64,000 nucleotides of DNA from Phycicoccus elongatus Lp2 (GTDB taxonomy: Bacteria > Actinomycetota > Actinomycetes > Actinomycetales > Dermatophilaceae), in contig NZ_HF570956.1 of assembly GCF_000367525.1 (NCBI RefSeq), positions 277,108 to 341,107 of the forward strand, in the 5' to 3' direction. The position numbers and the translations under genes were made by a program. Of the stretch, positions 44,535 to 63,615 are shown one piece after another. Positions within the stretch are counted from its first letter, which is position 1. Each line of letters opens with the position of its first letter. Under the pieces are notes generated by a model. That model worked only from the letters and a program-made list of their open reading frames with translations, did not search any database and was not told where the DNA came from.

Positions 44535-44552
44535 CGGTGCTCTCCTGACCCT

Positions 44553-46542: not shown

Positions 46543-46559
46543 CGGCACCAGGTCGCTGT

Positions 46560-46790
46560 CCGCCCGGCGCGAGGCGGTTGGGAAGGTTCGACGGCGCGGC
46601 TCCGACGCGGGCGTGCAGCCGGCCTTTGATGCGGCCCTCCGGGACGCCGCATCTCCACCCGGCTGCCTCCGCCCGGGCGGCGTACCAGACACGCACGTCG
46701 GGGTCGTCGAGGCGGTAGAGCAGAACCATGACGTGGCCCCACGGCAATTGCGCAGCAGCTGCTGCGCAATTGGGGTCCGTAGGCAACCGC
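46560..46790 (-). pseudogene. DUF1016/YhcG nuclease-family fragment, copy 1
   Basis: The minus strand reads DPNCAAAAAQLPWGHVMVLL, YRLDDPDVRVWYAARAEAAGW, then GRIKGRLHARVGAAPSN: the middle of a YhcG-like (PD-(D/E)XK/DUF1016) protein around its AAQLPWGH motif. The N-terminal helix domain and the nuclease domain are absent. Nearly the same piece, cut at the same places, recurs at 63435. Confidence 0.65.
46599..46779. repeat. 181-bp direct repeat, copy 1, with 28-nt perfect palindrome
   Basis: By hand alignment it matches 63435-63615 at all but five positions, without gaps. At one end (46745-46772) it has CAATTGCGCAGCAG followed immediately by its exact complement. Confidence 0.9.
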
Positions 46791-46862
46791 GGAGAGTCAG
46801 TCACGGCTTGCCCACGCAAAGGCCATCGATCCATAATGTCGGGGTAGAAAATGCGGCGGAGG

Positions 46863-47013
46863 CATAACACGACGTTAATGTTTCATGGAAACCGCGTTTG
46901 TGAAATCTTCGCTGCATCTCGACAACATCTGTCGAGATGCAGTCAAGATTGCACGACCGTATGCGGCGTACTCTGCACCATCGGTCGAACTTGAAGACGT
47001 CGTGCAAGAGCCG
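46863..47013 (-). repeat. Hairpin-element family, copy B
   Basis: Left arm 46905-46924 and right arm 46930-46949 pair with two mismatches around ACATC. TACTCTGCA starts 39 nt after the right-arm start (46969), and TGCAAG 34 nt later (47003). A second stem, TTGCACGAC (46949) with GTCGTGCAA (46999), is perfect here. CATAAC at 46863. It ends 54 bp past the stop of the minus-strand nitroreductase-like gene. Confidence 0.85.
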
Positions 47014-47066
47014 CTGGGCTCACCAAAGGTGACGAGAACTCTCTCTCCGGCTTCACCTTGGAACAG

Positions 47067-47525
47067 TCACTCGCGTTGGAGGCGGACCATCGGCAGCACG
47101 TCCGGCGCAGTGCCCGTGGCCTCCTTGATAGCTCCGCGCAGCCTGTCCCATGCCCTCGGATGCTCGGCTTGGTAGCGCGATAGAACGGCCTGCGAGTCCG
47201 CTTGGCTCAATGGTGTGGCTCGTGCTGCACGTCGACCGTCTCGCCCCAAAGTCACGAAGCAGTCTGGGTGGGCAACCAAGTTCCTATACCACTGCGCACG
47301 TTCGCCAAAGCCGCTGACCAGGACGAAGGTGTCGACCCCCTCGCGCTGAACGACTTCCAGACAGACGTACCGAGGCTCACCGGTCTTCCGACCGACATGT
47401 TCGAGCATCAGAACTCGAGGTCCGAGCAGCCACCCCAGCCCATGGCGGTACAGCCAGATGGGCGAGCGGACCAGCCTTCGGTTGCGGAGCGCTCGGGCAA
47501 CCCAGCGGTCAACCATCTGAGCCAT
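47067..47525 (-). CDS. Deazaflavin (F420)-dependent nitroreductase-family protein
   Basis: 152 residues of the Ddn/Rv3547 family: WLYRHGLGWLLGPRVLMLEHVGRKTGEPRYVCLEVVQREG, VLVSGFGERAQWYRNLVAHPDCFVTLG, and a conserved basic end. These split-barrel proteins use F420 to reduce quinones or nitro compounds. ATG 47525 is preferred; the open frame extends to 47606 without homology. It is followed by repeat copy B. Confidence 0.83.
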   Translation of the reverse strand: MAQMVDRWVARALRNRRLVRSPIWLYRHGLGWLLGPRVLMLEHVGRKTGEPRYVCLEVVQREGVDTFVLVSGFGERAQWYRNLVAHPDCFVTLGRDGRRAARATPLSQADSQAVLSRYQAEHPRAWDRLRGAIKEATGTAPDVLPMVRLQRE

Positions 47526-47654
47526 CGTTCGAGAGTACGCGCCCGACTCGTGCACGGTGCGCCCTCTCTGGGCCGTTATCCCGCGTGGAGTCACCGGCGC
47601 GGCCACGGCCCGCTGCCCTCACCGCTCGCGGCCGACCGCACGAGGTGCCGCGGT

Positions 47655-48374
47655 CTAGGGAACCGCGGGGGAGCGCCGGGTGAGCATCCGGGCGACCATG
47701 CCGAAGGTGACGACGGCAGAGGCCAGTCCCACGATGCCGGCGGGGAGGCCACCCACGGTGCCGGTGACGGCGAAGACGACGGCTGCCACCGGGACCCAGA
47801 TGGGGAGCAGCCGGGCGCGCCTCAATCCCCAGGTGAGGAGGATCGGACCCAACGTCATGCCGGCGATGAAGGCGATGATGACGAGGACGAACAAGGGGTA
47901 GCTGTTGGACGCGTCCTCCATGGCGGTCACGGCGCTCATGGGTGCCCCGGACGTGCCGTCGATGGCCGCCATCCCATAGAAGGCCAGGGCATGGGCCACC
48001 GACGCCACGAGCCCGAGGGCGACGAGGAAGGCACCCACTCGGATCGTGCGTTGGCCGCGGGTGGCCGGGTCGCCGGTCGAGGCCGTGACCTGGGGGTGAT
48101 AGAGGATCCTCAGGATGCCCGGCAGCATCGCGAGCGACCCTAGGGTGACCGCAAGACCGAGGGCCAGCCACAGGCCGGAGTGGGCCTGGACGCGACGGAC
48201 CATGTCGGGGATGCCGGTCACCTCGTCGTCGGGGAGGACGAGTCGACGACCGAGGTCACCGGCAGCGAAGGCGATCGCCCCGACGAGGAGTGCGAGAGCC
48301 GTGGTGCCAGCCGAGCCGGGGTAGTCGACGCGCCGTGCCGCCGATGCCGTGGTGGAGGAGGTTTCGGTGTCCAT
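47655..48374 (-). CDS. Unidentified membrane protein
   Basis: 239 residues with about seven hydrophobic helices (ALALLVGAIAFAAG, LWLALGLAVTLGSLAMLPGIL and others). Met and Gly residues sit in helices (AFYGMAAIDGTSGAPM). I cannot name the family; it resembles DUF4386-like proteins. GAAAGG precedes ATG 48374. It is divergent from a two-component system, which may regulate it. Confidence 0.6.
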   Translation of the reverse strand: MDTETSSTTASAARRVDYPGSAGTTALALLVGAIAFAAGDLGRRLVLPDDEVTGIPDMVRRVQAHSGLWLALGLAVTLGSLAMLPGILRILYHPQVTASTGDPATRGQRTIRVGAFLVALGLVASVAHALAFYGMAAIDGTSGAPMSAVTAMEDASNSYPLFVLVIIAFIAGMTLGPILLTWGLRRARLLPIWVPVAAVVFAVTGTVGGLPAGIVGLASAVVTFGMVARMLTRRSPAVP

Positions 48375-48569
48375 GACACGCCTTTCGTTGGTGATGTGGT
48401 GGTGCTGCCTCCACGGTGCGGCGACGACGTGGCAGTACACATCGCCCAGTGGGGCCCCTGCGAGCAACCCTTTGGGCCAGGGCCGGGAGGCCGTCATCCG
48501 CACGATGGCGCACACCTCTCATCACATCGGCCGAGCCGCTCCGCCGACCGTGAGGCGTACGCTCGATGG

Positions 48570-49712
48570 GTGCACGGGTCATCGAACTCGTGGCGCTCAC
48601 GCCGCATCCGTGGCGTCCCCGTCATCGATCTGACCCTCGCATCGGCCCTCGGTGCGGTGGCGATCATCGGTGCCCTACGCCATGAACCGCCCGAGGGGCC
48701 GGACCTGCTCACCCTCCCCGTGGCCGTGGTCATGTGCGGCGCCCTCAGCCTGCGCCGCATCCACCCGTTCGCCATGGCCGTGCTCGTCTCCGTGCCGGCC
48801 CTTGTGCAAGCCCTGGTGTCGGTGTCCCCGGGGGCGTTGTGGGCGCTGGCGGTGTACCTCGTGGCCACCGTGTCGGTCGCGACCCACGACACCGAGGCTC
48901 GCGCGGCCGCCGGGGGCGGCCTGCTCCTGGTTTCGCTCTTCCTCCAGGAGTGGCTTGACCACGGCACGGACTACGTCTTCATCGTCCTCGTCTTCGGCGG
49001 TGCCTGGCTGATCGGTCGTGGCCTCAACGCCTGGACCACGCGCGCGCTCAGCGCGGAGACCACGAGCAGCGAGACGGCCCGACTGGCCGTCGCCGAGGAA
49101 CGCCTGCGGGTCGCCCGAGAACTGCACGACGTCGTCGCCCACTCGCTCGGGGTGATCGCCGTCCAGTCCGAGGCCGCCGACGCCCTCCTGGAGCGCGACC
49201 CGACCCTGGCCCGGGCATCGGTCCAAGCCGTCCGATCGAGCGCGCGGGGTGCCCTCGACGAGATGCGCCAACTGCTCGGGGTCCTCCGAGCGGAGCCCGA
49301 CGGCCTCCCACTCGAACCACAACCGCGACTGGCCGGACTGGCCCAGCTGGTCGACTCGTTCACGGCCGCAGGTCTTCGGGTTGCCCTGACCCAGTCGACA
49401 CGACCCGCGCACCTGCGGCCCGGACTGGACCTCACGGCATTCCGGATCGTCCAGGAGTCCCTCTCGAACGTCCTTCGCCATGCCGGGCCGGTCCCCGTGA
49501 GCGTATCCGTGACCGTGGCCGGGGACGCTCTCGTCGTCGAGGTCCGCAACGCGTCCAGTGCCCCGGGCCCTCGACGTCTGCCGGGGACAGGCCTCGGCCT
49601 GATCGGGCTCCGGGAGCGGGTCCAGGCCCTCGACGGGACGCTCGTCCACGGACCTGACGGCAGCGGATTCCGTGTCACCGCAACGCTTCCACTGAGCGGG
49701 AGCACAGCGTGA
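48570..49712 (+). CDS. DesK-like sensor histidine kinase
   Basis: 380 residues from GTG 48570; TACGCT at 48559 suggests a leaderless transcript. N-terminal membrane helices, then HisKA_3 with phospho-His in RVARELHDVVAHSLGVIAVQSEAAD (about residue 190) and HATPase (NVLRHAGPVPVS, GTGLGLIGLRERVQALDG). It overlaps its regulator by GTGA. It may control the divergent membrane protein. Confidence 0.88.
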   Translation: MHGSSNSWRSRRIRGVPVIDLTLASALGAVAIIGALRHEPPEGPDLLTLPVAVVMCGALSLRRIHPFAMAVLVSVPALVQALVSVSPGALWALAVYLVATVSVATHDTEARAAAGGGLLLVSLFLQEWLDHGTDYVFIVLVFGGAWLIGRGLNAWTTRALSAETTSSETARLAVAEERLRVARELHDVVAHSLGVIAVQSEAADALLERDPTLARASVQAVRSSARGALDEMRQLLGVLRAEPDGLPLEPQPRLAGLAQLVDSFTAAGLRVALTQSTRPAHLRPGLDLTAFRIVQESLSNVLRHAGPVPVSVSVTVAGDALVVEVRNASSAPGPRRLPGTGLGLIGLRERVQALDGTLVHGPDGSGFRVTATLPLSGSTA

Positions 49713-50404
49713 TCCGGGTGGTGATCGCCGATGACCAGGCCTTGGTGCGGGACGGGTTCTCGCTCATCCTCAACCTCGAGGAAGACATCGACGTCGTCGC
49801 GGTGGCCGGTGACGGCCGCCAATGCCTGCGGGAGGTCGCGCGGACCCGCCCGGACGTGGTCCTCATGGACATCCGGATGCCGGTCCTCGATGGGATCGCC
49901 GCGACCGAGGAGATCATGCGATCGGGGGCGAGCGCGCGGGTGCTCATCCTCACGACATTCGACCTCGACGTCTACGTCTATCGCGCGCTGCGCGCCGGTG
50001 CCTCGGGGTTCCTTCTCAAGGACGTGCCGCGACAGCAGTTGGCCGCGGCGGTTCGGATCGTCGCTGACGGAGGATCCGTCGTCGGACCGGCCATCACGCA
50101 ACGCCTCATCGAGCACTTCGTCGGCCGACCGCCCGTGGGCAACCCGCTGCCACCGACCCTGAGGCGACTGACCGTCCGCGAGAGCGAGATCCTGCGAGCG
50201 CTCGCGCAGGGCCGGTCCAACCGGGAACTCGCGCGAGCGCTCGCCCTATCCGACGCCACGGTCAAGACCCACGTCGCGACGATCCTCGCCAAACTCGGAG
50301 TGCGGGACCGGCTCCAGGCGGTGGTCCTCGCCTACGAGTCGGGTTTCGTCCAGCCGGGACGGGTGGACGACGCCAACAGCCCGGGTGGTCCCGACGCGCG
50401 ATGA
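49709..50404 (+). CDS. NarL/FixJ-family response regulator
   Basis: 231 residues, GTG start. Receiver VVIADDQALVRDG, acceptor Asp in VVLMDIRMPVLDG (about residue 54) and Lys in GFLLKDVP. HTH: LTVRESEILRALAQGRSNRELARALALSDATVKTHVATILAKL. Third kinase/regulator pair of this type in the window. Confidence 0.92.
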   Translation: MIRVVIADDQALVRDGFSLILNLEEDIDVVAVAGDGRQCLREVARTRPDVVLMDIRMPVLDGIAATEEIMRSGASARVLILTTFDLDVYVYRALRAGASGFLLKDVPRQQLAAAVRIVADGGSVVGPAITQRLIEHFVGRPPVGNPLPPTLRRLTVRESEILRALAQGRSNRELARALALSDATVKTHVATILAKLGVRDRLQAVVLAYESGFVQPGRVDDANSPGGPDAR

Positions 50405-50450
50405 GTCACGACGCCGCGACCTCGCCGCATCTGGACAGCTGAACCAGCCT

Positions 50451-50683
50451 CATAACTGAAGGCGCTCAACGCGCCCGAGATGCATATCCTCGGGCAATTC
50501 TTAGAATCAACTGCCGTTCTTACAAGATTGAGCGCATCTCGACACTGCCGCCGCCTCCTAGAAAGAGGAGGGGGCAATCATGTCGAGATGCAGCGAAGAC
50601 TCCACGAACTCAGGCGGCGTACTTTGCAGAAATCGTCCCGATCAGTGGGGTCGTGCAAGTTCGCCCCGAGCAGCCGGGAGAGC
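50451..50683 (-). repeat. Hairpin-element family, copy C (expanded loop)
   Basis: GCATCTCGACA (50534) pairs with TGTCGAGATGC (50581) around a 36-nt insert that itself folds (CCTCCT with AGGAGG). TACTTTGCA begins 39 nt after the right-arm start (50620), and TGCAAG 34 nt later (50654). CATAAC at 50451. It ends 76 bp past the stop of the minus-strand GNAT gene. Downstream GTTCGCC...CGAGCA matches copy A. Confidence 0.8.
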
Positions 50684-50758
50684 CCAAATCCTCCATGCGG
50701 CAGAGTCGGGCATGTGTGTGACCTCGTACCCTTACAGGCTCATCACAGGGCGTGTTCC

Positions 50759-51358
50759 TCAAGGACTGACCATCTTCCGCATCACCCAGCGCCACTTCGC
50801 GATCTTGCGTTCCCGGCTGAACCCAAACGCGGCATAGAGCGATTCCGGCCCGGTGTGAAAGTAGGAGCCTCTCTGCGGAGCGCGGTCCTCGACTTGTTCT
50901 GGGTATGACTCCACGAGTCCCCCGCCGGCGGCCCTGATCTCCTCGAGTGCACGTGCCACAGCGGCATGAGCAACACCTTGGTTGCGGTGGCCCCTGCCGG
51001 TGAAGATGCACCCGATTCTCCAATCTGGTAGGGACTGGGCATCCTTGGCGTACGCCTTGGCGTTCTGGATCGTAGGCAGTTCGGCTGGACTTCCGAATTG
51101 GCACCAGCCGACGCAGTCGTCCCCCTCATAGACCAGGACCTGATGGACGGTGCCCTTGCGGACATGTTCGTGCTTGGCCTCCTCGTTCGCGCCACGGCTC
51201 GTTCGGGAGAGACCTTCGGGATGAAAGCCCATGCACCAGCATCCGCCCCAGACGCCGTTGTTGTCTTCCACCAGACGAGCGAAGTCATCCCAGGTCTCAA
51301 CGGTGAGCAGGCGAGTCGTGTACTCGGGAATCTCGCGTTCGGTGCCCATGACGACCAT
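50759..51358 (-). CDS. GNAT-family N-acetyltransferase
   Basis: 199 residues: TRLLTVETWDDFARLVEDNNGVWGGCWCMGFHPEG, HVRKGTVHQVLVYEGDDCVGWCQFGSPAELPTI, acetyl-CoA loop GRGHRNQGVAHAAVARALEEI and a GFSRERKIAKWRWVMRK end. Several Cys/Trp residues in the N-terminus are typical of this subgroup. ATG 51358 or 51349. It is a single gene enclosed between repeat copies C and D, like a one-gene cassette. Substrate unknown. Confidence 0.83.
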   Translation of the reverse strand: MVVMGTEREIPEYTTRLLTVETWDDFARLVEDNNGVWGGCWCMGFHPEGLSRTSRGANEEAKHEHVRKGTVHQVLVYEGDDCVGWCQFGSPAELPTIQNAKAYAKDAQSLPDWRIGCIFTGRGHRNQGVAHAAVARALEEIRAAGGGLVESYPEQVEDRAPQRGSYFHTGPESLYAAFGFSRERKIAKWRWVMRKMVSP

Positions 51359-51562
51359 CGTGCCGGGCCCTTCATTTTGTAGGCAAGCACACGGTCGCTT
51401 CTCTCCGCACTCTGCCCGATTGTTGGGGTTGCCGAATGCACTCAACTCGGCAGTACAGCGAGATGCCGCACGAGAAGCGGACCGGCGGAAGACGGGCTCC
51501 GGCCTACTGCAACGGTGTAGCGGCAGCACGCCCGAGCATCGCATCGCGGCAATACAGCATTA
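51359..51562. other. Spacer upstream of the GNAT gene
   Basis: No credible gene. The minus-strand frame of the GNAT gene stays open to 51544 but shows no homology. It contains the probable GNAT promoter region; I see no strong boxes. Confidence 0.35.
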
Positions 51563-51694
51563 AAACGCCACTACTCCAGTCTTCGCTGCATCTCGACACG
51601 ACAACAACAACTGTCGAGATGCAGCGAAGACTGCAGGGGCACGTGCGTTCTACTTGGTACAGATCGGCCTATCCGGTGAGGTCGTGCATGATCG
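51563..51694 (-). repeat. Hairpin-element family, copy D (perfect 22-bp stem)
   Basis: CAGTCTTCGCTGCATCTCGA plus CA (51577-51598) pairs perfectly with 51612-51633 around a 13-nt CAA-rich loop. TACTTGGTA starts 39 nt after the right-arm start (51651), and TGCATG 34 nt later (51685). The distal side has CATTAAAAC (51559) instead of CATAAC. It ends 118 bp past the stop of minus-strand kdpE. Confidence 0.85.
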
Positions 51695-51811
51695 AACCCG
51701 ACCGCTGGACCGCCCCGCACTCTCTTTGGCAAATCGGGCCTCCCGGGCTGTTGCGGACGGACATCGCGTGGATGACCATTTCGTGGCCCTCGCCTCGAGT
51801 CCGGCACGGAC

Positions 51812-52501
51812 TCACGGGTCGAGCCGATAGCCCAGACCGGGTTCGGTGATCAGGTGTCGAGGTCGCCCGGGGGCGGGCTCGAGTTTGCGGCGGATTTGGT
51901 TGGCGAAGACGCGAAGGTAGTTGGATTCGCGACCGTAGCCAGGCCCCCAGACCGCTTTGAGGAGCGCCTCGTGCGGAACCAGCCGGCCCGGCTGCCGTGC
52001 CAGCGTCGTGAGGATCCGCCATTCGGTCGGGGTGAGATGCACATGCTTGTCACCGTCGGTCAGACGGGCGCTCATGGTCGTGAAGTCCAACCTGAAGGCG
52101 TCGCACGTGAACGCCGGCGCAGGGCCGACCGCATCCCCGGTGCCACGGCGCAGGGCAACTCGCACACGGGCCATGAGCTCGTCGGCGCCAAAAGGTTTGG
52201 TGACGTAGTCGTCCGCCCCCTCGTCGAGCGCCTCGACCTTGTCGTCGGACTGCTGACGAGCGGACAGGACGATGACCGGAACTTTGCTCCTTCGACGCAG
52301 TCGGCGAAGGACCTCCACCCCGTCGATGTCGGGCAACCCCAGGTCCAGAATGACCAGATCGGGGGTCTCCTCGTCGGCCGCCGCCAGAGCGTCCCGTCCT
52401 GACCCCACCGTCTCCACCTCGTAGCCGCGCGCCCGAAGGTTGATTCGCAGGGTGCGCTGGATGGCCGGGTCGTCCTCGACGACGAGGATCCGATCGGTCA
52501 T
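51812..52501 (-). CDS. kdpE: KDP operon response regulator
   Basis: 229-residue OmpR-family regulator: RILVVEDDPAIQRTL, acceptor Asp in LVILDLGLPDIDG (about residue 53), VTKPFGADEL, and a winged helix ending REPAPGRPRHLITEPGLGYRL-type (VFANQIRRKLEPAPG). With KdpD it induces kdpFABC under potassium limitation. It overlaps kdpD by ATGA and is the last gene of the operon; repeat copy D lies beyond. Confidence 0.95.
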   Translation of the reverse strand: MTDRILVVEDDPAIQRTLRINLRARGYEVETVGSGRDALAAADEETPDLVILDLGLPDIDGVEVLRRLRRRSKVPVIVLSARQQSDDKVEALDEGADDYVTKPFGADELMARVRVALRRGTGDAVGPAPAFTCDAFRLDFTTMSARLTDGDKHVHLTPTEWRILTTLARQPGRLVPHEALLKAVWGPGYGRESNYLRVFANQIRRKLEPAPGRPRHLITEPGLGYRLDP

Positions 52502-55029
52502 GGTCGCTCCCCCGAACCGGATGGCGCCTCGGCAGGGGACCGACTCGGCAGGGTGACGACCATGGTCAGCCCACCTCCAGGCGTGTCCTCCGCATCGACC
52601 GTGCCGCCCATCGCGTCGGTCAACCCGCGAGCGACGGCCAGACCCAACCCGACACCGTCGCCTGCGGGTGAGTCGCCGAGCCGTTGGAAGGGCTGGAACA
52701 TCTGCTCCCGCTTGCCTTCGTCCAGCCCCGGTCCTGAGTCGACGACCCGGATCTCGACGGTGTCGCCGAGCCCACTGGTCGTGATCCGGACCGGCGCGCC
52801 CGGGGGTGAGTGACGCAGGGCATTCTCAAGGAGGTTTCCCAGAACTCGCTCGAGGAGCCCTGCGTCGGCGTGGAGCCAGCGCGCGGTGGGCGAGATCTCC
52901 CAGAGCACCAGCCTCGGGTCGGTCAGGGTGGCTGCCGTGTGGGGGATGGCGTCGGCGAGGTCGATGGTTCGGGGCCGCGCGACGAGTGCACCGACCTGCA
53001 GGCGGGACATGTCGAGCAGGTTGCCGACGAGGGCGTCGAGGCGGTCGGCGGACTCCTCGATGATGCTCTCCAACTCGGCCTCGTCGTCAGCCGAGAAGTC
53101 CACTTCATCGCTGCGCAAGCTGCCGATGGCCGCCTTGATCGAGGCCAAGGGCGTGCGCAGATCATGAGAGACGGCCGAAAGCAGGGCGGTCCGGGCGCGG
53201 TTGTCGCGGGCCAGCGATTCGGCGTCCCCGGCCGAGCGTTGCAGGGCTCGGCGATGCAGGATGGCGGCGGCATGGGCGGCGTACGCGGCAAGCAGCCTCT
53301 GGCGGTCGGCCGCAGGTGGCGGCCCGAGGAGGACCAGATCGTGGTCGTCGTTGACCTTCTCGATTGTGGGTGCTGCAGAGGCCGTGTCCGAGGCGTACGA
53401 CTCGGTCGCGTCGACGACCTCAGGCTCGCGATGCTCCTTGGTCGACCGGCGGATGATGGCCGCCGAGGACGCACCGAACATGTCGACCGCCCGACGGAGG
53501 AGCACCGCCATCTGATCCGTGGACCCAAGCAGGGTGTGGGTGAGCTCGGCCAGGGCTGCGGACTCTTGTTGCGCCTCGATCGCCGCGTCGGCCCGACGTG
53601 CGCTGCGATGCACCACGGTGGAAACAATGGCCGCGATCGCGACGAAGACGAAGAGCGCCACGACGTGTTCGGGGTCGCCGATGGTGAGGGTCTGTAGGGG
53701 CGGGGTGAAGAACCAGTTGATCAGCAAGGAGGCCACCACGGCCGAGGCGATGGCTGGCCACATTCCGCCGACCACGGCCACACCCACGACCGCCAACAGG
53801 TAGACGAGCACGATGAGGGGGAGGCCCACGTCGTACGGGCTGAAACTCAGCACAGCGCTCAGCAGGGCTGGCAGCACCAGGGCGAGCACTGCTCCCAGCC
53901 GGACGCGGTCAGCCGAGAGAGCACCGACAGGCCGGGGGGCGGTACCTCGGCCGGTGCGAGGTTGCGTCACGACGAGGACATCGATGCTGCCGCTTTCGGC
54001 AATGACCGATTCGCCGATGCTTGCTCTGATGGCACGGCGCCATGGGGGCCGGCGGCTGGCACCGATGACGATCTGGGTGGCATTCAGACCGCGCGCAAAG
54101 TCCAGAATGGCCGGTGCAGCAGCCTCGCCGGTCACGGTGTGGAACGTACCCCCGAGTTCCTCTGTGAGCGTCCGCAGCTCGGCGACCTCGGGCAGCGAGG
54201 GACCGGCGAGCCCGTCCTGTCGAGCGACATAGACCGCGTGCAACTCGCCTCCGGCGCCGCGGGTGGCGATCCGCGCGCCGCGCCGCAGCAGGCCGGCGCT
54301 CTCTGGCCCTCCCGAGATCCCGACGACCACGCGTTCACGCGTCGGCCACGTGCCAGTGATGCCGTGGCCCTCCCGGTATTCCTCGACCGCTTCTTCGACT
54401 CGATCGGCCAACCACAGGAGAGCGAGTTCGCGGAGCGCGCCGAGGTTGCCGACGCGGAAGTAGTTGGACAGCGCCGCATCGATCTTCTCGGCCTTGTAGA
54501 TGTTGCCGTGGGCCATCCGTCGACGCAGTGACTCCGGTGACATGTCGACGAGCTCGATCTGGTCGGCCGAGCGCACCACCTGATCGGGCACGGTCTCCTG
54601 CTGGACGATGCCTGTGATCGCGGTGACCGCGTCGTTGAGCGACTCCAGATGCTGGATGTTGACCGTCGAGATGACGTCGATACCTGTATCGAGGAGCTCC
54701 TCGATGTCCTGCCATCGCTTCTCGTGGCGTGAGCCCGGTGCGTTGGTGTGGGCGAGTTCGTCGACGAGCGCGACCTTTGGCGCTCGGGCGAGGACGGCGT
54801 CGAGGTCCATCTCCTCGAAGGTGGCCCCCCGGTAGACCACGGTCCGACGGGGGATGACCTCAAGCCCTTCGAGCATGCTCATGGTGTGAGGCCGGCCATG
54901 GGTCTCGCACAGCGCGACGACGACGTCGGTGCCGCGCTTGGCGCGGCGCACTCCCTCGGAGAGCATGGCGACGGTCTTGCCGACACCGGGTGCAGCGCCC
55001 AGGTAGATCCTCAGCCGACCGCGACCCAT
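52498..55029 (-). CDS. kdpD: Potassium/osmotic sensor histidine kinase
   Basis: 843 residues in standard order: KdpD N-terminal domain with Walker A (IYLGAAPGVGKTVAML) and Walker B-like (ALVDELAHTNAPGSRHEKRWQDIEELL); Usp domain (about 220-360, VVGISGGPESAGLLRRG); four helices (about 385-480); GAF; then HisKA with phospho-His in LLSAVSHDLRTPLASIKAAIG and HATPase (NLLENALRHSPPGAP, GVGLGLAVARGL). Length is typical. It starts 11 bp after kdpC. Confidence 0.96.
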   Translation of the reverse strand: MGRGRLRIYLGAAPGVGKTVAMLSEGVRRAKRGTDVVVALCETHGRPHTMSMLEGLEVIPRRTVVYRGATFEEMDLDAVLARAPKVALVDELAHTNAPGSRHEKRWQDIEELLDTGIDVISTVNIQHLESLNDAVTAITGIVQQETVPDQVVRSADQIELVDMSPESLRRRMAHGNIYKAEKIDAALSNYFRVGNLGALRELALLWLADRVEEAVEEYREGHGITGTWPTRERVVVGISGGPESAGLLRRGARIATRGAGGELHAVYVARQDGLAGPSLPEVAELRTLTEELGGTFHTVTGEAAAPAILDFARGLNATQIVIGASRRPPWRRAIRASIGESVIAESGSIDVLVVTQPRTGRGTAPRPVGALSADRVRLGAVLALVLPALLSAVLSFSPYDVGLPLIVLVYLLAVVGVAVVGGMWPAIASAVVASLLINWFFTPPLQTLTIGDPEHVVALFVFVAIAAIVSTVVHRSARRADAAIEAQQESAALAELTHTLLGSTDQMAVLLRRAVDMFGASSAAIIRRSTKEHREPEVVDATESYASDTASAAPTIEKVNDDHDLVLLGPPPAADRQRLLAAYAAHAAAILHRRALQRSAGDAESLARDNRARTALLSAVSHDLRTPLASIKAAIGSLRSDEVDFSADDEAELESIIEESADRLDALVGNLLDMSRLQVGALVARPRTIDLADAIPHTAATLTDPRLVLWEISPTARWLHADAGLLERVLGNLLENALRHSPPGAPVRITTSGLGDTVEIRVVDSGPGLDEGKREQMFQPFQRLGDSPAGDGVGLGLAVARGLTDAMGGTVDAEDTPGGGLTMVVTLPSRSPAEAPSGSGERP

Positions 55030-55039
55030 GACGCCATTC

Positions 55040-55612: not shown

Positions 55613-55613
55613 G

Positions 55614-57701
55614 TCAGGCCATTCCGGGGAGCAGGGAGACGAGGAGGTCGATGACCTTGATCCCGACGAAGGGAGCGATCAGGCCGCCAAGCCCGTAGAC
55701 GAGCAGGTTGCGACGCAACATCGCGGTGGCGCTCAGCGGCCTGTAGGCAACGCCCCTGAGCGACAACGGAATCAGGGCGACGATGATGAGCGCGTTGAAG
55801 ATGACGGCCGCGAGCATGGCCGACTTCGGACTGGACAGACCCATGACGTTGAGCGCGGCCAGGCCCGGGAAGATGCCGACAAACATCGCCGGGATGATCG
55901 CGAAGTACTTCGCGACGTCGTTGGCGATCGAGAAGGTCGTCAGCGCCCCACGGGTGATGAGCAGCTGCTTGCCGATGCCCACGATGTCGATGAGCTTCGT
56001 CGGGTCGGAGTCGAGATCGACCATGTTTCCGGCCTCCTTGGCCGCGGACGTGCCGGTGTTCATCGCGACCCCGACGTCGGCCTGGGCCAGCGCGGGCGCG
56101 TCGTTGGTGCCGTCGCCAGCCATGGCGACGAGGCGACCGCCCTGCTGCTCCGCTTTGATGAGACGCATCTTGTCTTCGGGGGTGGCTTCGGCCAAGTAGT
56201 CGTCGACTCCGGCCTCGGCGGCGATGGAGGCTGCGGTCAACGGGTTGTCGCCGGTGATCATCACCGTGCGAATTCCCATCTCCCGCAGCTGATCGAAGCG
56301 TTCGCGCATCCCGGGCTTCACCACATCCTTGAGGAAGATCACCCCCAACTGGCGCGGCGGCATACCCACGTCTTGCACGGCGACCACGAGCGGCGTGCCA
56401 CCGGCCCGGCTCACGGTGTCGACGGCCTCGTCGACGTCGTGGGCCATGTGTCCCGCCTCGGCGTGCACCCATGCCGCCACGGCCGAGCCGGCACCCTTGC
56501 GCACCCGCGAGCCATCGGGCAAGTCGACCCCCGACATGCGGGTCTGGGCCGTGAAGGGCACGAATTCGGCTCCGGTGCGCAGCAACTCGGGGGTCGAGGT
56601 GATGTCGGCGGTGAAACCTTGCGCCAGCGCGTAGTCGACGATGGAGCGCCCCTCGGGGGTCTCGTCGGCGAGGGAGGAGAGGTATGCCGCGCGCAACAGT
56701 TCGGTGCGATCGACACCGGCCACCGGGAGGACGTCGGCCGCCTGACGGTTGCCGAATGTGATCGTGCCGGTCTTGTCGAGCAGCAGGGTCGAGACGTCGC
56801 CAGCGGCCTCGACGGCTCGTCCGGACATGGCCAGGACGTTGCGTTGCACCAGCCGGTCCATCCCGGCGATGCCGATGGCCGAGAGCAGTGCCCCGATGGT
56901 CGTGGGGATGAGGCAGACAAGCAGCGCGACGAGGACCACGAGGTGGAGCCGGTCGCCGGAGTAGATCGCCATTGGCTGCAACGCCATGACGGCGAGCAGG
57001 AAGATGATCGTCAGCACGGTGAGCAGGATCGAGAGGGCGACCTCGTTGGGCGTCTTCTGCCGGGCCGCACCCTCGACGAGGGCGATCATTTTGTCGATGA
57101 AGCTCTCGCCCGGCTTGCTCGTGATCTGCACGACGATCCGGTCCGAGAGCACGGTCGTCCCGCCCGTCACGGCGCTGCGGTCGCCACCGGACTCGCGGAT
57201 CACGGGCGCGGATTCGCCGGTGATGGCGGACTCGTCGACGGTGGCCACCCCCTCGACGACATCGCCGTCGCCGGGGATGACCTGCCCGGCCTCGACGACG
57301 ACGCGGTCGCCGACCTTGAGGTCCTGCCCCGAGATCTGCTCCTCGGAGCCGTCAGCGAGCAGTCGTCGCGCAGCCGTGTCCACGCGGGTCTGCCGCAGGG
57401 ACGCGGCCTGGGCCTTGCCGCGCCCCTCGGCGATCGCCTCGGCGAGGTTGGCGAAGATCAGGGTCGCCCAGAGCCAGAGCGTGATCAAAACAGAGAAGAC
57501 GCTCGAGTCGAGGACGGAGAGGACGGTCGTCAGGACCGATCCCACCCACACGACGAAGATGACCGGCTGACGGACCAGGTGGCGCGGGTCGAGCTTGACG
57601 AGGGCCTGCGGGAGGTTCTCCCAGGCCGTGGTGCCCAACGACTTCCGCGGCGCGGCCGGGTGGATGTGCTTGTCAGGGACGTGGTCGGTCAAGGCAGTCA
57701 T
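55614..57701 (-). CDS. kdpB: K+-transporting ATPase, KdpB catalytic subunit
   Basis: 695-residue P1A-type ATPase. Motifs: [23 protein letters not shown], phosphorylation site [13 protein letters not shown] (Asp about residue 305), KGAGSAV in the nucleotide domain, [10 protein letters not shown] and [16 protein letters not shown]. It powers high-affinity K+ import through KdpA. It overlaps kdpA by ATGA. Confidence 0.97.
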
Positions 57702-59344
57702 GAGAGGGCCTCCGCGAGGGGCCCGAGGGCCAAGGACGGGAAGAAGGTCAGGCCGGCCAGCAAGAGCACGATCCCGACGAGGAGCACCCCGAAGATGGGC
57801 GTGTGCGTGGGCATGGTGCCCGCGGTGACCGGTCGGCGGAGTTGACTGGCCAGGGCGCCGGCCAGGGCCAGGGTGAGGACGATGATCCCGAATCGGGCGA
57901 GGAACATCACCGCGCCGAGCGACAGGTTGAGCCACGGCTGGTCGGCGGATAGCCCCGCGAAGGCGGAGCCGTTGTTGTTGCCTGCCGAGGAGAAGGCGTA
58001 GAGCATCTCGCTCAGCCCGTGCGGGCCGTCCGCGAGCATCGCCGCTCGGGCGCTGGGTAGTAGGAGGGAGATCGCGGTCCCGGTGAGGACGAGGGTCGGC
58101 ATGATGATGGAGGCCAACGCGGCATACGTGATCTCCTTGCGGCCCACGGTCTTGCCGAGCAACTCCGGGGTCCGGCCCACCATGAGCCCGGCGATGAAGA
58201 CCGTGATGATCGCCAGCACGAGCATCCCGTAGAGCCCGGTTCCGACACCTCCGGGCGAGACCTCTCCCAGCATCATGTTGAGCATGAGCATGCCTCCGCC
58301 GAGCGGGCTGTAGCTCTCGTGCATCGAGTTGACCGCGCCCGTCGAGGTCGCCGTCGTGGCCGTGCCGAAGAGGGCTGACCAGGCGATTCCGAAGCGTTCT
58401 TCCTTTCCTTCCATCGACCCGGTAGCCAGTGTCGAGGCGGCAGTCTCGGACCACGTGGTCAGCAGCGCTGCACCGGCGAAGAGGACGGCCATCACCGCTG
58501 CGACGAGTCGGCCTTGACGACGGTCGCCGACCATGAGTCCGTAGGTGCGGGTCAAGGCGAAGGGGATGAGCAGGACGAGGACGATCTCGAGCAGGTTGGT
58601 CCAGGCGTTGGGGTTCTCGAAGGGGTGGGCCGAGTTGGCGTTGAAGAATCCGCCACCGTTGGTGCCCAGCATCTTGATCGCCTCTTGGGAGGCAACCGGC
58701 CCGCCCGGGATGGTCTGGGGGCCGCCGGTGAGGGTCTGGACGACGGAGGGAGCGTTGAGGTTTTGGATCACTCCGCCGAGGATCAGCAGGAGGGCGGCCA
58801 CCGTGGCGATCGGGAGCAGGACCCGCACGCTGCCGCGGGTCAGGTCGACCCAGAAGTTGCCGACGCGGTCGGCGCCGGCCCGCGCGAGACCTCGCACCAG
58901 GGCGATGGCGACGGCGAGGCCGGTCGCGGCGGAGACGAAGTTCTGGACCGTCAGGCCCAGCATCTGGACGGTGTGACCGGCACCGGCCTCACCGGCATAC
59001 GACTGCCAGTTCGTGTTCGTCGTGAAGCTGATGGCGGTGTTGAGCGCGCCGTGCCAGGTCTGGGAGCGGCCGAAGGACCACGGGAGCCAGCCCTGGACGA
59101 GGATGAGGAGCCAGAGGGCGACCACCGAGACAACCCCGAAGGCGACGACGGAGATCGCGTAGACACTCCAGCGTTGCTCGGTGTTGGGGTCGACGCCGAC
59201 GATGCGGTAGATCGCGCGCTCGACCCGCCAGTGCCGCTCGTCGGTGAAGACGCGGTGGAGCCAGGTGGCCAAGGGGTACCCGAGGACCGCGACGATCACA
59301 CCCACGGTCGCCAGTGCGAGGACGGTTTGAAGGAGGGGGCTCAT
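57698..59344 (-). CDS. kdpA: K+-transporting ATPase, KdpA channel-like subunit
   Basis: 548 residues, ten helices, four SKT/KtrB-like pore repeats: [34 protein letters not shown], the segment ending [16 protein letters not shown], and [13 protein letters not shown]. It supplies the selectivity filter of the Kdp importer. The start is ATG 59344, 3 bp after the kdpF stop. Confidence 0.97.
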
Positions 59345-59347
59345 CGG

Positions 59348-59434
59348 TCAGAACCGTTCCGGGCAGAGCAGGGCATAGAACAGGTAGCCGAGAAGGGCCA
59401 GGCCGATGACTGCGGCCACGAGGTCTTCGATCAC
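59348..59434 (-). CDS. kdpF: K+-transporting ATPase, small KdpF subunit
   Basis: 28-residue single-helix peptide from GTG 59434: IEDLVAAVIGLALLGYLFYA, then a short LLCPERF end, the usual KdpF pattern. It stabilises the KdpABC complex in lipid. It is too short for most gene finders, but position (immediately before kdpA) and sequence are decisive. GGTGAG lies directly before the GTG. Confidence 0.88.
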   Translation of the reverse strand: MIEDLVAAVIGLALLGYLFYALLCPERF

Positions 59435-59485
59435 CTCACCATGCAACCTCGCGGCGCCTGCCCGCGCGTCGGAGGTGACGAGTCC

Positions 59486-59686
59486 ATGACGGATCTTGAC
59501 GCAATCCTGACGACCCCGGCGCAGCCAACCGGCGCGGGCCGGTTTGCCTACGTCAGGCTGGGATTACGAGTGGAACGGCGCTTCATCGTCGATGGGGACC
59601 AACTGACAGCCCACTGTCCTCCGGGAAGTGATCTCGGCGCCGGATTGGCACATAACGTGACGTCCAGTCCGACGCCCCTGTCATAA
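59486..59686 (+). CDS. Short unidentified ORF cut by repeat copy E
   Basis: A strong ribosome-binding site (GGAGGTGA, 7 bases before ATG 59486) starts TDLDAILTTPAQPTGAGRFAYVRLGLRVERRFIVDGDQLTAHCPPGSDLG. The frame enters the repeat element at about 59651, so the last dozen residues are element sequence. I do not recognise the protein. It probably represents the 5-prime part of a gene truncated when the element arrived. Confidence 0.4.
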   Translation: MTDLDAILTTPAQPTGAGRFAYVRLGLRVERRFIVDGDQLTAHCPPGSDLGAGLAHNVTSSPTPLS

Positions 59687-59827
59687 CGCGACGTTTATGT
59701 TTCATGCAAACCGCGTTTGTGAAATCTTCGCTGCATCTCGACACATCTGTCGAGATGCAGCCAAGACTGCGCGAGGGTGCGCGGGGCACTCTGCACACGC
59801 GGCTGCCCGGGAGAGGTCGTGCAAGGA
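59651..59827 (-). repeat. Hairpin-element family, copy E (longest, composite)
   Basis: Left arm 59725-59743 and right arm 59748-59766 pair with one mismatch around CATC. CACTCTGCA starts 39 nt after the right-arm start (59787), and TGCAAG 33 nt later (59820). The distal side holds CATAAC twice (59651, 59682): the outer unit matches copy A, the inner one (to TTTCATG, AAACCGCGTTTGTGAAATC) matches copy B. It ends 55 bp past the stop of minus-strand ietS. Confidence 0.85.
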
Positions 59828-59881
59828 TGCCTGTGTTGGCATGTGGGCAAGCCGCGCAGGGCGACCGGGTTCGGGCTGCAG

Positions 59882-62221
59882 TCAGGCGCGGAGGCGCACG
59901 CGGGTCGGCAAGCGAAGTTCCTGCCGCAAGATCTGGTGCAAATCAGCGGTCGCGAGTTCGCGGTCTTCGAGCGTGGCCGCGAGGGCATAGCTCTGTTGCT
60001 CATAGTTTGCGTCACCCCGAGCCCAGGTCTGAGCCTTGTGAGTGACGGCGATGTGGAAGGTCTCATTGTCGTTCACGAACGAGTTGTGCCCGACCCAAGC
60101 GCGGAGCTGCAGTGTGCTGTGCGTGAACGTGTTCACGCCTGGTCGGAGGTTCAGTCTTCGGCGGTCGTTGATCAGATCGTTCGGATCGTCGGGGTCTTGT
60201 CGCTGCAGAATCTCGGCAAGCTCATCAGGATCGATGTCCCGGTACACGTTGAACTTCATGGTCCCGGCGAGATACTCCCGCCGCTGGCGCCGAACAGGTG
60301 GGTCGAATGCAAGGGCAACGCTGATAACGCGATCGCGCCGACTCCCTTGCCGAAAGGCCTCGGGGATCGGCATCGGGTGGATCTGAACCGTGTCGACTGG
60401 CATAGCGCCGTCGTAGGTCATCGTCACTCGTCTGGCATCGCTTGATGTCGCTCTGTGGACGTCCGGCAGGCCCAATCCGTATACGCGGTTTCGGCGATGC
60501 AGTTCGGACAGGCTGGCCGCCGGAGGGGTCTGTGCCGAGCCCGCTGCGAGCAGGGCCCTGACCAAGTTTCCTGAGGCGTCAGGGTAGGAGTAGGCGATAT
60601 CGGCCGCCACCCTGGCCACCGCTGGGGCGGCATAGCTGGTCCCATTCACCGTCGCGAAAATCTGGCCACCGGACCCTCTCGTCGACGTGCTGATGAGCGA
60701 GGCGCCCAAGTCGTTCTGCACGATGTTTCCGGTGTCGGACACGACGAGGTTGCCACCGTAATGCGTAACGTCCGGCTTGTTGGCTCGTTTCGAGTTGGTC
60801 CCTAGGCCAGGCCCAGTCCTGCTAAAAGGTGCAGCCTCGTCGGCATCGGCAGCTGCCTGCCAGCCAAAACGTCCATGAAGTTCAGCCGGTGCCCCACTAA
60901 GAGCGAGCGCTCCGACGGTCACAGCCAAGGCAGCTGGACCCGGCTCCGACAAACGATGCTCGGGCGCGAAAAAGAACTCCGGCTTGTCGTCGATTACATG
61001 GTGCCCGCTTGGAGTTCGGGCCGAAAGGTCGGCAGGAGCATTCCCAGTGGGAAGAACCACGACGATGCCCAGCTCACGAATCAGATCGTCAATCGTCTCA
61101 GTGAGTGGACCGAGATGGAGGTCGTTGAACGGCTCTGAGTAGCCGACGGAGAGGTTGAAGATCCTCACCCCATGAGTGCCGTGGAGGTGACGGATGGCGC
61201 CTTCGACCAGATCGTGGGGAGCTGCGTAAGTCGCGAACCGCGGCGCGCGGTCTGGACGCGAGGGATCCGGTTCAAGGATGCGAACGACCCGGACACTCCC
61301 GACAGCAGCCGAGATCGGCAGCGCATCCCGAAGCTCTTCATGCAGGCCGGGGAGGAGAACTCGCCCGACCACTTCCGTGCCATGAGTGCCGCGCTGCTGC
61401 CACTGGTAGGCAGGGGGCGCTAGAGACTCGTCCGACACAACCAGTCCACTCAGCAGCGGGTGCGCTGACTCGGGGGAGTCGTCGAGTACCCCGACCACCT
61501 CGCTGACTACCTCCGACCGAGAGGTTGTTGAGATGTCGAGGTTCCTCCAGTCGCGGAAGTCCAAGAACGGGACCGGAGGTGTACGCACCAACTCGACTAC
61601 CGAGGTGTTCAAGAGGTCATCGAGCCCAGTGGAAGAGACACTTACCCTCAGATAGCTGCGTCTCGCCGACACAGATCGAAGCAGGACCCGGCCGGCATTC
61701 TGAGCCAAGATCTGCTCAACGCTGCGGGTACGCCGTTCAGCTTCGCTATACGTTCCACTGGGCCAGATGATGACGTCGAGCGTGTGCTGGCTCAGGCGTC
61801 CGTCGAGGTCGGCGATGCCGGGTCCGGAGCGGTCGGCGGGGCCGTAAGGTTCGATGTCGTCGATCTGGTTGAAGAAGGTCCGCATCTCTCCTGTGCGGAC
61901 GTACCGCTCGATTGCCTGCTCCAGCGAAGAGCCCTGATCGCTCGCGAGCACAAAGTAGGTGTAGTCGACTGTCTCACCCAGAACCTGCAGTCCGCGTCCC
62001 TCAAACGAAGAATCCTCTGGTCGTGCACCCGCCTTGATCTTGAAGACGAGGTCAGGGTCCACGCCAGCGTTCAACTGGCGCGGCGCGCGGGCAGTCTGCA
62101 GTTGCTGACGTAGGTGCGCACCGTGCTGGCCACGCTGACGGTTCGGCGAACCGCCGCCTGCGGGACTTGAACGTCGCGACTGCAGCGGACGAGGGTTCGG
62201 CAGCAAGAGGTGTTCGGGCAT
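59882..62221 (-). CDS. ietS: Subtilisin-like (S8) serine protease of an IetAS-type pair
   Basis: 779 residues. An N-terminal region of about 220 residues, then an S8 peptidase with the complete triad: Asp in SEVVGVLDDSPESAHP, His in RGTHGTEVVGRVL and Ser in NGTSYAAPAVARVAADIA. There is no signal peptide, so it is cytoplasmic, unlike secreted subtilisins. The Cys-poor C-terminal 170 residues are beta-rich (KFNVYRDID...). It begins 4 bp after an AAA ATPase gene. Paired AAA ATPase/S8 protease genes are known as IetAS, first linked to plasmid stability and later to phage defence. Confidence 0.82.
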   Translation of the reverse strand: MPEHLLLPNPRPLQSRRSSPAGGGSPNRQRGQHGAHLRQQLQTARAPRQLNAGVDPDLVFKIKAGARPEDSSFEGRGLQVLGETVDYTYFVLASDQGSSLEQAIERYVRTGEMRTFFNQIDDIEPYGPADRSGPGIADLDGRLSQHTLDVIIWPSGTYSEAERRTRSVEQILAQNAGRVLLRSVSARRSYLRVSVSSTGLDDLLNTSVVELVRTPPVPFLDFRDWRNLDISTTSRSEVVSEVVGVLDDSPESAHPLLSGLVVSDESLAPPAYQWQQRGTHGTEVVGRVLLPGLHEELRDALPISAAVGSVRVVRILEPDPSRPDRAPRFATYAAPHDLVEGAIRHLHGTHGVRIFNLSVGYSEPFNDLHLGPLTETIDDLIRELGIVVVLPTGNAPADLSARTPSGHHVIDDKPEFFFAPEHRLSEPGPAALAVTVGALALSGAPAELHGRFGWQAAADADEAAPFSRTGPGLGTNSKRANKPDVTHYGGNLVVSDTGNIVQNDLGASLISTSTRGSGGQIFATVNGTSYAAPAVARVAADIAYSYPDASGNLVRALLAAGSAQTPPAASLSELHRRNRVYGLGLPDVHRATSSDARRVTMTYDGAMPVDTVQIHPMPIPEAFRQGSRRDRVISVALAFDPPVRRQRREYLAGTMKFNVYRDIDPDELAEILQRQDPDDPNDLINDRRRLNLRPGVNTFTHSTLQLRAWVGHNSFVNDNETFHIAVTHKAQTWARGDANYEQQSYALAATLEDRELATADLHQILRQELRLPTRVRLRA

Positions 62222-62225
62222 CGCG

Positions 62226-63200
62226 TCACCAGGGCCGCGCGGTTATGCCTGGCATCGCCCGATCCACGTCCTGGGCCATCACGACGGCTGAATTTCGCAA
62301 GAGCGCATTCCGCCGGGCATCGATAACTAGCTTCTCCGCCGCCGCGTGCGGTCGACCCTTCAATGCGCTGGCATATCGGTTGATCTCAAGGCCCGAGTGC
62401 GCGACCCCCTTCAGGCGCAACCTGAGGACCTGCCGGATTTGGTGCACCGTCGGCAGCCCGAAGGTGAGCACCTCATCGAAACGCCGCCATAGCGCCTCGT
62501 CGAGCAGTGCTGGGTGGTTCGTGGCGGCAAGCAGCAAGCTTGGGCCACGGTAACGATCCGTCATTTGGAGGAAAGCACTGACGACTCGCTTCATCTCGCC
62601 GTGCTCTGACGCGTCGTCGCGCGACCGGCCCAACGCATCGAACTCATCGAACAGGACCACAAATGGCGCTTGGTCGGCATACTCGAAAATTCGGCGGAGA
62701 TTGCTCGAAGTCTCCCCCAAGTACGAGGAGACGACCGCATCCAGCCTGACCATCAGAAGCGGTCGCCCCAACTCGACTGCGATGGCCTCCGCCGCTGTTG
62801 TCTTGCCACATCCGGGCGGTCCCTGAAGGAGAAGGCGCTGGCGTCGCGGCAGGCCGGCAGCATCCAAGGCTGGCCACTGGCGGACTTCTTCGACGACGTT
62901 CTCCAAAACCAAAGAGACGGCATCTTGCAGGACGAGGTCTTCCAAGAGGTGCTCCGGCTCGCGAACCTCCCCTAGGTCCCACTCGCCTTCCCGGTCCTTC
63001 GGGGGTGCGGGGACCACGATCGTCGAGCCGGGATCGAGCGAGCCACCGCCGGCAACGAGGAGCTTCTGCAGGTCACGGGCAAGCGCGTTGTGGTGCTTGG
63101 CCTGCTCTTCCTCAATAATCTCCATCGCGGCACGACGGAAGGCCAACTCGTCTCGCGCATGGAACGCGCGGAAGATCTCCTTCAACTGTCGGCCGGCCAC
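62226..63200 (-). CDS. ietA: AAA-family ATPase of an IetAS-type pair
   Basis: 324 residues from GTG 63200. An N-terminal helical part (about 1-105) precedes an AAA+ core: Walker A LLQGPPGCGKTTAAE, Walker B APFVVLFDEFDALGRSRDD, sensor-1 LLAATNHPALLD and Arg finger RRFDEVLTF. It resembles the small proteasomal-type AAA ATPases found next to subtilases. It presumably controls or delivers substrate to the protease encoded 4 bp downstream. The Ser-protease and ATPase active sites are both intact. Confidence 0.83.
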   Translation of the reverse strand: MAGRQLKEIFRAFHARDELAFRRAAMEIIEEEQAKHHNALARDLQKLLVAGGGSLDPGSTIVVPAPPKDREGEWDLGEVREPEHLLEDLVLQDAVSLVLENVVEEVRQWPALDAAGLPRRQRLLLQGPPGCGKTTAAEAIAVELGRPLLMVRLDAVVSSYLGETSSNLRRIFEYADQAPFVVLFDEFDALGRSRDDASEHGEMKRVVSAFLQMTDRYRGPSLLLAATNHPALLDEALWRRFDEVLTFGLPTVHQIRQVLRLRLKGVAHSGLEINRYASALKGRPHAAAEKLVIDARRNALLRNSAVVMAQDVDRAMPGITARPW

Positions 63201-63434
63201 GCTCCCATCCTAGAGATGGGGTCAGACTGGGCAGGGACCTCGTAGTGGTGGTGTGTTGAACGTCGATGGCTCGGTCGATACTGGCATCCCCGCTTGGCGC
63301 GAGGACGCGCTTGTCCGCAGGCTCGGTGGGGATGGCGGTGAGGTCGTGCAGGCACTGCTTCGTGGGGCCGGCGCCGAGTGATTTCCCGCACACGGTGGCG
63401 GCGCGGACCCGGCGGAGGTGGAGTTCGAGGGCAC
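63201..63434. other. Spacer upstream of ietA with unidentified coding-like sequence
   Basis: Minus-strand frames read for example ALELHLRRVRAATVCGKSLG and TEPADKRVLAPSGDASID, with plausible codon use, but I recognise no family. No start or promoter is clear. It may be the decayed remainder of a gene joined to the YhcG fragment. Confidence 0.3.
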
Positions 63435-63615
63435 GCTCCGACGCGGGCGTGCAGCCGGCCTTTGATGCGGCCCTCCAGGACACCGCAGCTCCACCCGGCG
63501 GCCACCGCCCGGGCGGCGTACCAGACACGCACGTCGGGGTCGTCGAGGCGGTAGAGCAGAACCATGACGTGGCCCCACGGCAATTGCGCAGCAGCTGCTG
63601 CGCAATTGGGGTCCG
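63435..63615. repeat. 181-bp direct repeat, copy 2, with 28-nt perfect palindrome
   Basis: Gapless match to 46599-46779 with five differences by hand alignment. The palindrome is at 63581-63608. Same orientation as copy 1. Confidence 0.9.

Follow-up and report, generated by a model that had tools for sequence, protein, structure and literature searches.

Why should two fragments of one gene, lying about 17 kb apart in a bacterial genome, carry the same perfect 28-nt palindrome? The question is raised by a 64,000 nt stretch of the genome of Phycicoccus elongatus Lp2 (contig NZ_HF570956.1, positions 277,108 to 341,107; hereafter the window, whose coordinates are used throughout), in which the segments 46599-46779 (copy 1) and 63435-63615 (copy 2) align in direct orientation, without gaps and with five differences in 181 bp. 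Both contain the exact palindrome CAATTGCGCAGCAGCTGCTGCGCAATTG, at 46745-46772 and 63581-63608. The initial annotation of the window described this pair and its palindromes correctly, and its assignment of the fragments to DUF1016/YhcG is upheld by tblastn and by matches to the DUF1016_N profile (PF17761): copy 2 scores 43 bits, above the cut-off of 32.8 (profile positions 65-137), and copy 1 scores 29.7 and 31.1 bits, just below it (positions 82-137). The relics thus belong to the YhcG/DUF1016 family (PF17761 plus PF06250), a widespread, poorly characterised family of nucleases and a defence candidate in PADLOC (PDC-S02, whose models are matched by the two intact YhcG members tested). The palindrome proves to be a regular feature of intact genes of this family, where its sequence varies in step with residues of the domain predicted to read it.

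In intact YhcG genes the homologous codons, which lie between the protein motifs MR.FY..P and L(S/P)W.H, contain an inverted repeat. For 119 unique genes, the mean score of this site is 11.07, versus 4.82 in synonymous-codon shuffles, and in 97 of them the site beats all 100 shuffles. A score of at least 8 is reached by 104 of the 119 sites but by only 14 of 1485 other gene regions of the same length, and in 112 genes the site surpasses every other such region examined within its own gene. The same holds for 179 distinct genes from many phyla: 138 sites score at least 8, 144 beat all 50 synonymous shuffles, and in 165 no more than two of the 50 reach the site. Genes with a short region, without extra units, number 81; of the 78 scored, 71 have the centre of the palindrome 18 nt ahead of the Trp codon in L(S/P)W.H. 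The constraint that keeps the palindrome acts on the DNA and does not come from the protein sequence; repeats in the protein, considered as a cause of the palindrome, are ruled out by the synonymous shuffles. The L.REI.W clade gave a first impression, from L053 and L043, of lacking a palindrome, but most of its further members have one.

Genes with identical site regions were counted once and both anchors had to be present, which reduced 203 aligned open reading frames (ORFs) to 179 rows. The 119- and 179-gene sets, and the 172-gene set used for residue coupling, each include copy 2 of the window (L001), and loci L127 and L085 contribute two rows each. The loci sampled from genome contigs were the best 80 of 583 confirmed. 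As a guard against biased sampling, 60 extra loci were drawn by DUF1016_N profile search in two phyla, those to which a Flavobacteriales genome and a Nostoc genome belong; in 58 genes from loci drawn only by PF17761, 33 sites score at least 8, 43 beat all shuffles and 52 are reached by two shuffles at most.

Short palindromes are also the hallmark of REP sequences and of the Rickettsia palindromic elements, the latter sometimes lying in coding sequence according to the available part of one account (PMC4316617). Unlike these, the YhcG site is not dispersed. The consensus of its commonest subtype occurs 23 times in 28 genomes, with 0-2 sites in each and none in 11, and 16 of the 17 loci opened lie in DUF1016 ORFs; these numbers, and the presence of two copies in the genome of the window, rule out a dispersed element of either type.

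The two arms of the palindrome change together. With one unit per gene (175 of the 179), the fraction paired is 0.85-0.98 for positions 3-9, counted from the centre. Independence would give 0.32-0.45 at positions 3, 4 and 6-9, where the mutual information amounts to 1.0-1.6 bit. Non-overlapping nearest pairs of genes, 63 in number, show 114 changes that affect both arms and stay paired versus 57 that affect one arm, with 26 both-arm changes not paired in both genes and 496 positions unchanged; in a few of these pairs the unit used is visibly not the site (L100, L130, L258, L227). Where a gene has several units, the best-paired one was used for the pairing fractions and mutual information and for the coupling, sister-pair and prediction tests, and all units for the comparison of units with their reader.

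Near-perfect stems with a weakly coupled central 3 nt would suit an mRNA hairpin, the inverted repeat then acting as RNA through translation pausing, as an RNase III site or by YhcG binding to its own mRNA. However, non-Watson-Crick pairs show no excess of G.T over A.C (31 versus 35; 26 versus 29 in a second count) and therefore indicate a constraint on DNA rather than on an RNA stem; the unit detector demands pairing and so favours paired arms, but it does so for G.T and A.C alike. These counts rule out an RNA hairpin as the main constraint, copies of the site also lie outside coding sequence, upstream of four genes, and the coupling to DNA-facing helix-turn-helix (HTH) residues documented below follows an Arg-G, Glu-C logic, leaving an mRNA hairpin highly improbable. 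The arms also change jointly between close relatives and within E. coli, as they might if template switching during replication kept an old, functionless palindrome symmetric. Such mutational self-correction is hardly credible, given that these genes seldom contain other strong palindromes (the 14 regions in 1485), that position and register are fixed across phyla, and that it predicts no coupling to HTH residues encoded at least about 30 nt away.

Structure prediction points to a reader for the site within the protein itself. In an AlphaFold2 model of a whole member (mean predicted local distance difference test score, pLDDT, 79.5; predicted template modelling score, pTM, 0.44), the C-terminal part resembles PD-(D/E)XK nucleases, with EndoMS/NucS at Z 11.7 and McrBC, Can2/Card1 and FokI also among the VIA-align matches, and residues 31-152 resemble the DNA-binding domains of ParB/Noc/Spo0J, with Z up to 9.6. 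When the N-terminal domain is modelled alone (pLDDT 93.5, pTM 0.81), the first twelve entries are all ParB/Noc/Spo0J (Z 9.6-7.4, 93-104 aligned residues, root-mean-square deviation 2.2-3.6), and the next folds follow from Z 6.5 down. With the whole model, Foldseek returns ParB and Noc chains at E 0.05-0.13 and a probability of 0.97-0.99. By sequence, HTH_ParB (PF17762) is matched by 7 of 40 members at E<=10 (best E 1.2e-4), the first member reaching 16.3 bits versus a cut-off of 22.6, and the best E in a search of PDB sequences, 0.03, is not credible. The fold predicted for DUF1016_N is thus similar to that of the DNA-binding domain of ParB/Noc. The codons of the palindrome specify the stretch that separates the recognition helix from the L(S/P)W.H helix, a short helix plus coil in the models.

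Which residues might read the site was assessed by comparing protein columns with half-site bases in 172 genes, with columns 91-98, encoded by the palindrome, set aside as trivially coupled. Column 75 with base 7 (z 11.8), column 78 with base 8 (9.5), column 105 with base 4 (6.6) and column 102 with base 3 (6.3) lead, and the best column of the nuclease domain has a z of 3.4. Arg75 occurs with G in 59 of 62 genes, other residues at this column mostly with C or T; Glu78 occurs with C in all 43 cases, aromatic and small residues at 78 mostly with T, and Lys, Gln and Arg more often with G, Arg and Lys being mixed at this column in the short-region genes. Both tables appear to read like protein-DNA chemistry (Arg-G, Glu-C). 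In 83 non-overlapping sister pairs, three couplings give the best values of 2128 column-base tests, with unadjusted p of 4e-12 (column 102, base 3), 6e-11 (column 75, base 7) and 4e-7 (column 78, base 8), and the first column from the nuclease domain follows at 1.3e-4. As half-site bases follow reader residues, recognition of a cruciform alone, first considered for the resemblance of the nuclease to Holliday resolvases (the available part of PMC1189080), was set aside.

The couplings also have predictive value. A predictor was built from the 117 genes of the earlier loci, and its test set was 55 genes drawn later: 54 from Bacteroidota and cyanobacterial genomes, phyla of which a few members were in the training set, plus L200, whose removal barely alters the figures. 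Out of 298 columns, the best in the test genes are 75 (base 7), 78 (base 8), 79 (base 5), 105 (base 4) and 130 (base 3). Base 7 is predicted correctly in 41 of the 55 (baseline 20), base 5 in 50 (38) and base 4 in 38 (10). When training is limited to genes of less than 50% identity, the correct predictions among the 172 genes number 131 for base 7 (baseline 61), 127 for base 8 (78) and, from column 102, 125 for base 3 (26).

Taken with the predicted fold, these patterns argue that a YhcG dimer very probably binds the palindrome inside its own gene. One ParB/Noc-like HTH would occupy each half-site, and the two arms would change together because each is read by one HTH of the dimer. Several observations weigh against binding of this kind. 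Foldseek gives a best E of 0.56 with the N-terminal model alone, and a Z of 8 to 13 can arise by chance when a model is mostly helical. The shuffle test is failed by 14 of the 179 genes (L053, L127, L206, L220, L247, L251 and L058 among them), one of these rows being a second, misaligned ORF of L085. In the test genes the coupling of column 79 with base 6 failed (28 of 55 versus a baseline of 31), and the best column for base 6, column 43, is not an HTH surface residue; column 102 predicts base 3 weakly (17 of 55, baseline 8; column 130 predicts it in 38 of 53), and the margin of base 8 over unrelated columns is small (0.78 versus 0.74). The later units of genes with several units also often do not fit the reader.

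If bound in this manner, the site invites comparison with those of ParB and Noc (Spo0J), to which DUF1016_N is likened by its predicted fold and by a palindromic site that helix residues appear to read. Column 102 presumably falls in the same L-S-x-(G/S)-H motif as ParB residue 201, if the Caulobacter sequence is as we take it to be, the correspondence being one of motifs rather than of a computed alignment. In ParB, R173 contacts G1 and residue 201 governs base pair 6, as stated in the available part of PMC7383237. Unlike ParB, YhcG has DUF1016_N fused to a PD-(D/E)XK nuclease, found in all 40 intact members examined, and lacks a matched CTPase-domain family, the N-terminal ParB/CTPase domain not being among the 23 families matched by 40 members. 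Unlike parS and the Noc-binding site (NBS), the YhcG site varies from gene to gene, is ~25-29 nt long and lies within the gene of its own reader. In B. subtilis a parS site does lie inside spo0J.

Two to four units are held by 61 genes (strict detector). With columns 75 and 78 as the measure of fit to the reader, no other unit surpasses the first in 57 of these, 38 of them ties; where the scores differ, the first beats the mean of the others in 26 genes and loses in 4. Measured by six couplings rather than two, the first unit is unsurpassed in 52 of the 61, and the difference between the first and the others is positive in 30 and negative in 9. Matches to yhcG are present in 4417 of 5426 E. 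coli genomes, and the 11 alleles read from these fall into two types: the first unit is CGC in all seven K75/R78 alleles (the left arm in K-12 with one change) and GTG in all four R75/W78 alleles. The second unit is CGC, the site of the K75/R78 type, in three of the four R75/W78 alleles, and CTC on both arms in the fourth, a symmetric double change within the species. Relative to K-12, the first 240 nt of the alleles are 95-98% identical and the last 700 nt 96-99%, with the exception of one frameshifted allele, whose first part is out of register, and one truncated allele.

It is conceivable, although we consider it doubtful, that YhcG genes are self-contained specificity cassettes in which the helix and its cognate site, ~30 nt apart, are swapped together between alleles, tandem units being a record of other specificities. 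Were this true, non-cognate units could let one allele control a rival allele or be controlled by it.

The K-12 allele itself (L071, 5828-6955) has Arg in place of the conserved Trp of six other in-frame E. coli alleles (PLPR versus PLPW) and one altered base in its first unit, and this laboratory allele may be impaired. Two kinds of truncation of E. coli yhcG are located at the third palindromic unit, an IS1 junction (query base 385) and a loss of the 3' part (base 406), at L188 (3501) and at L187 and L189 (3906); their positions suggest breakage at palindromes.

Extra copies of the gene's own site were found at 7 of 172 loci, nine in all, versus 0 for one shuffled half-site per gene. Three lie ~110-210 nt before the first ATG of L212, and one, which matches at all 22 scored bases, precedes the ATG of L200 by 28 nt; L039 and L037 have one each, 148 and 57 nt ahead of the annotated start. 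In E. coli K-12 (L071, 6982) an extra site is located 27 nt after the yhcG stop, between yhcG and nanQ, and in L076 and L216 one is located inside the gene, 60 nt before the main region. Autoregulation is inferred, with some help from the upstream copies, which are what an autorepressor would have; to us the case that YhcG binding represses transcription of the nuclease gene is evenly balanced. Repression would be exerted by a roadblock to RNA polymerase or, where promoter sites are present, jointly with these. Having the operator within the gene would let control move along with the gene, operator and reader travelling as one cassette in horizontal transfer. Upstream sites are, however, recognised in only 4 of the 172 genes, so that autoregulation at the promoter is not general, which counts against this reading.

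Self-cleavage or recombination at the site is also possible. That YhcG cuts or recombines at its own palindrome, and that the site thus serves cassette exchange, copy control or gene conversion instead of repression, would fit the resemblance of the modelled nuclease domain to EndoMS and other PD-(D/E)XK enzymes, the swapped reader-plus-palindrome cassette between the 95-99% identical ends of E. coli alleles, the two E. coli truncation junctions at the third unit, and the short distance, 7 nt, that separates the palindrome of copy 1 in the window from the end of that copy. But cutting the sole recognised site would damage the host gene, palindromes are prone to breaks even without any enzyme, and some genes have extra sites upstream of them; on balance such a role seems unlikely.

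Neither an intragenic palindrome nor a reader code is mentioned in the available portions of accounts of YhcG/DUF1016 (PMC1189080, PMC4316617, PMC1913061, PMC11341870, PMC7967276), a survey that took in few subscription papers and no bioRxiv preprints. What could be seen of one of these describes an antisense RNA over the 5' region of yhcG and no palindrome (PMC7967276), and the main text of a map of E. coli inverted repeats (PMC6060812) does not name yhcG. An intragenic site with a residue-to-base code across bacteria and archaea would, if true, provide a handle on what YhcG binds. It would also mean that a constraint on nucleic acid influences protein sequence throughout a family, that natural pairs of co-evolved reader and site are available for the study of specificity change in ParB-type proteins, and that regulation of the family could be tested with reporters in E. 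coli. DUF1016 matches were also seen to overlap or adjoin genes for DNA methyltransferases or type I restriction-modification on plasmids of Deinococcus and Aeromonas (H81, H83, H99, H100).

How, then, did two such palindromes come to flank a block in the window? The initial annotation held that both copies were cut at the same two points and that the fragment itself must have moved or been duplicated. With intact YhcG proteins as tblastn queries, however, homology of copy 1 runs past the left edge of the 181 bp to 46562-46571, and that of copy 2 past the right edge to 63640, or to 63661 with PF17761, so the truncation points differ. On sequence evidence, the 181 bp are the overlap of two relics, each truncated at a different place. 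Relic 1 (46562-46779, minus strand) extends from just upstream of the palindrome to beyond the end of DUF1016_N (AAPSNLPNRLAPG); relic 2 (63435-63661, minus strand) extends N-terminally (MHTVARESPDP) and is cut on the 63435 side. As the gene is on the minus strand, the left relic retains more of the C-terminal (3') part and the right relic more of the N-terminal (5') part.

Both relics begin downstream of recognition-helix residues 75-79, homology to intact YhcG proteins ends near the end of DUF1016_N in both, and the C-terminal PD-(D/E)XK nuclease domain was not found in copy 1. From their sequences, then, the window holds relics and no YhcG gene, and these relics keep the site but have lost the putative reading helix and the nuclease. 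As the genome has no other match to DUF1016_N at E 0.001, the two palindromes, homologous to the site in intact genes, are orphan sites. Half-site bases 9-8-7 of the relics are G-C-G, as in actinobacterial genes with Arg75 and Val78 (L007, L037, L039). The relics lack the single central base, being 28 nt long versus 29 nt in L007, and even-centred units of this kind account for 16 of the 204 detected.

The two relics bracket an accessory block (46780-63434) that the initial annotation described as holding kdp and ietAS; IetS and IetA were both confirmed, and the kdp operon is recognised by eye and by similarity to kdpB. With near-identical direct copies on either side, and the five differences between them all clustered within 28 nt (positions 43-70 of 181), as after recombination between two alleles, the 181-bp fragment could itself be mobile, its palindrome marking its end and the pair bracketing a mobile block of 17 kb. 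The different truncation points refute part of this, and the palindrome is no sign of a mobile end, being inherited from intact YhcG genes. The search for further copies that had been proposed revealed only these two, with no third in the single-contig genome of 3.17 Mb, where the 181-bp query has three other matches, two of them the palindromes read from the opposite strand and the third 29 nt long (E 5e-4). Among plasmids, 142 records match the block, none with 80% of it in one place, and the 15 matches listed all cover the kdpB region. No evidence was found of the block moving as a unit, and we regard mobility of the fragment as very unlikely. The direct repeats could in principle recombine, and the relics are arranged as they would be if the block had inserted into a single older yhcG fragment and 181 bp had been duplicated.

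The comparison of strains that had also been suggested gave no empty site: in 183 other genomes of the family nothing matches the right flank at E 1e-20. The left flank does occur elsewhere. In the three closest copies examined from family genomes, the left copper/histidine-kinase module is 94-97% identical, and past the shared end point near 46549 comes sequence other than yhcG. Of 186 family genomes, 51 match the 181-bp query at E 0.001 or better, mostly in short stretches at chance level; the better matches (L006-L010) were examined for YhcG genes. The palindrome has 0 exact matches in viral contigs.

The copper/histidine-kinase module (38906-46549), by eye from its ORFs a heavy-metal P-type ATPase, a multicopper oxidase and a two-component system, ends ~13 nt from the first relic; its right part, to which the 94-97% identity in three family genomes applies, has no long match in the two other genomes of the genus. 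A family of hairpin elements with the arms CTGCATCTCGACA/TGTCGAGATGCAG and common flanks is present at 38651-38700, 46863-47014, 50581-50628, 51580-51635 and 59682-59825, with a sixth to the right of the window at the genome equivalent of 80678-80740. A search at E 0.001 finds the family in a single ~42-kb part of the genome only, a distribution that would suit a link to one island or to a series of insertions into it. Also to the right of the window, at ~65.8-72.9 kb in window coordinates (L035, 6759-13914), are genes for a TniB ATPase and two TniQ proteins, one above and one below its Pfam cut-off. Beside them lies a protein of 736 aa with no Pfam match that by eye resembles a transposase, and a Tn7/Tn5053-like transposon probably adjoins the second relic.

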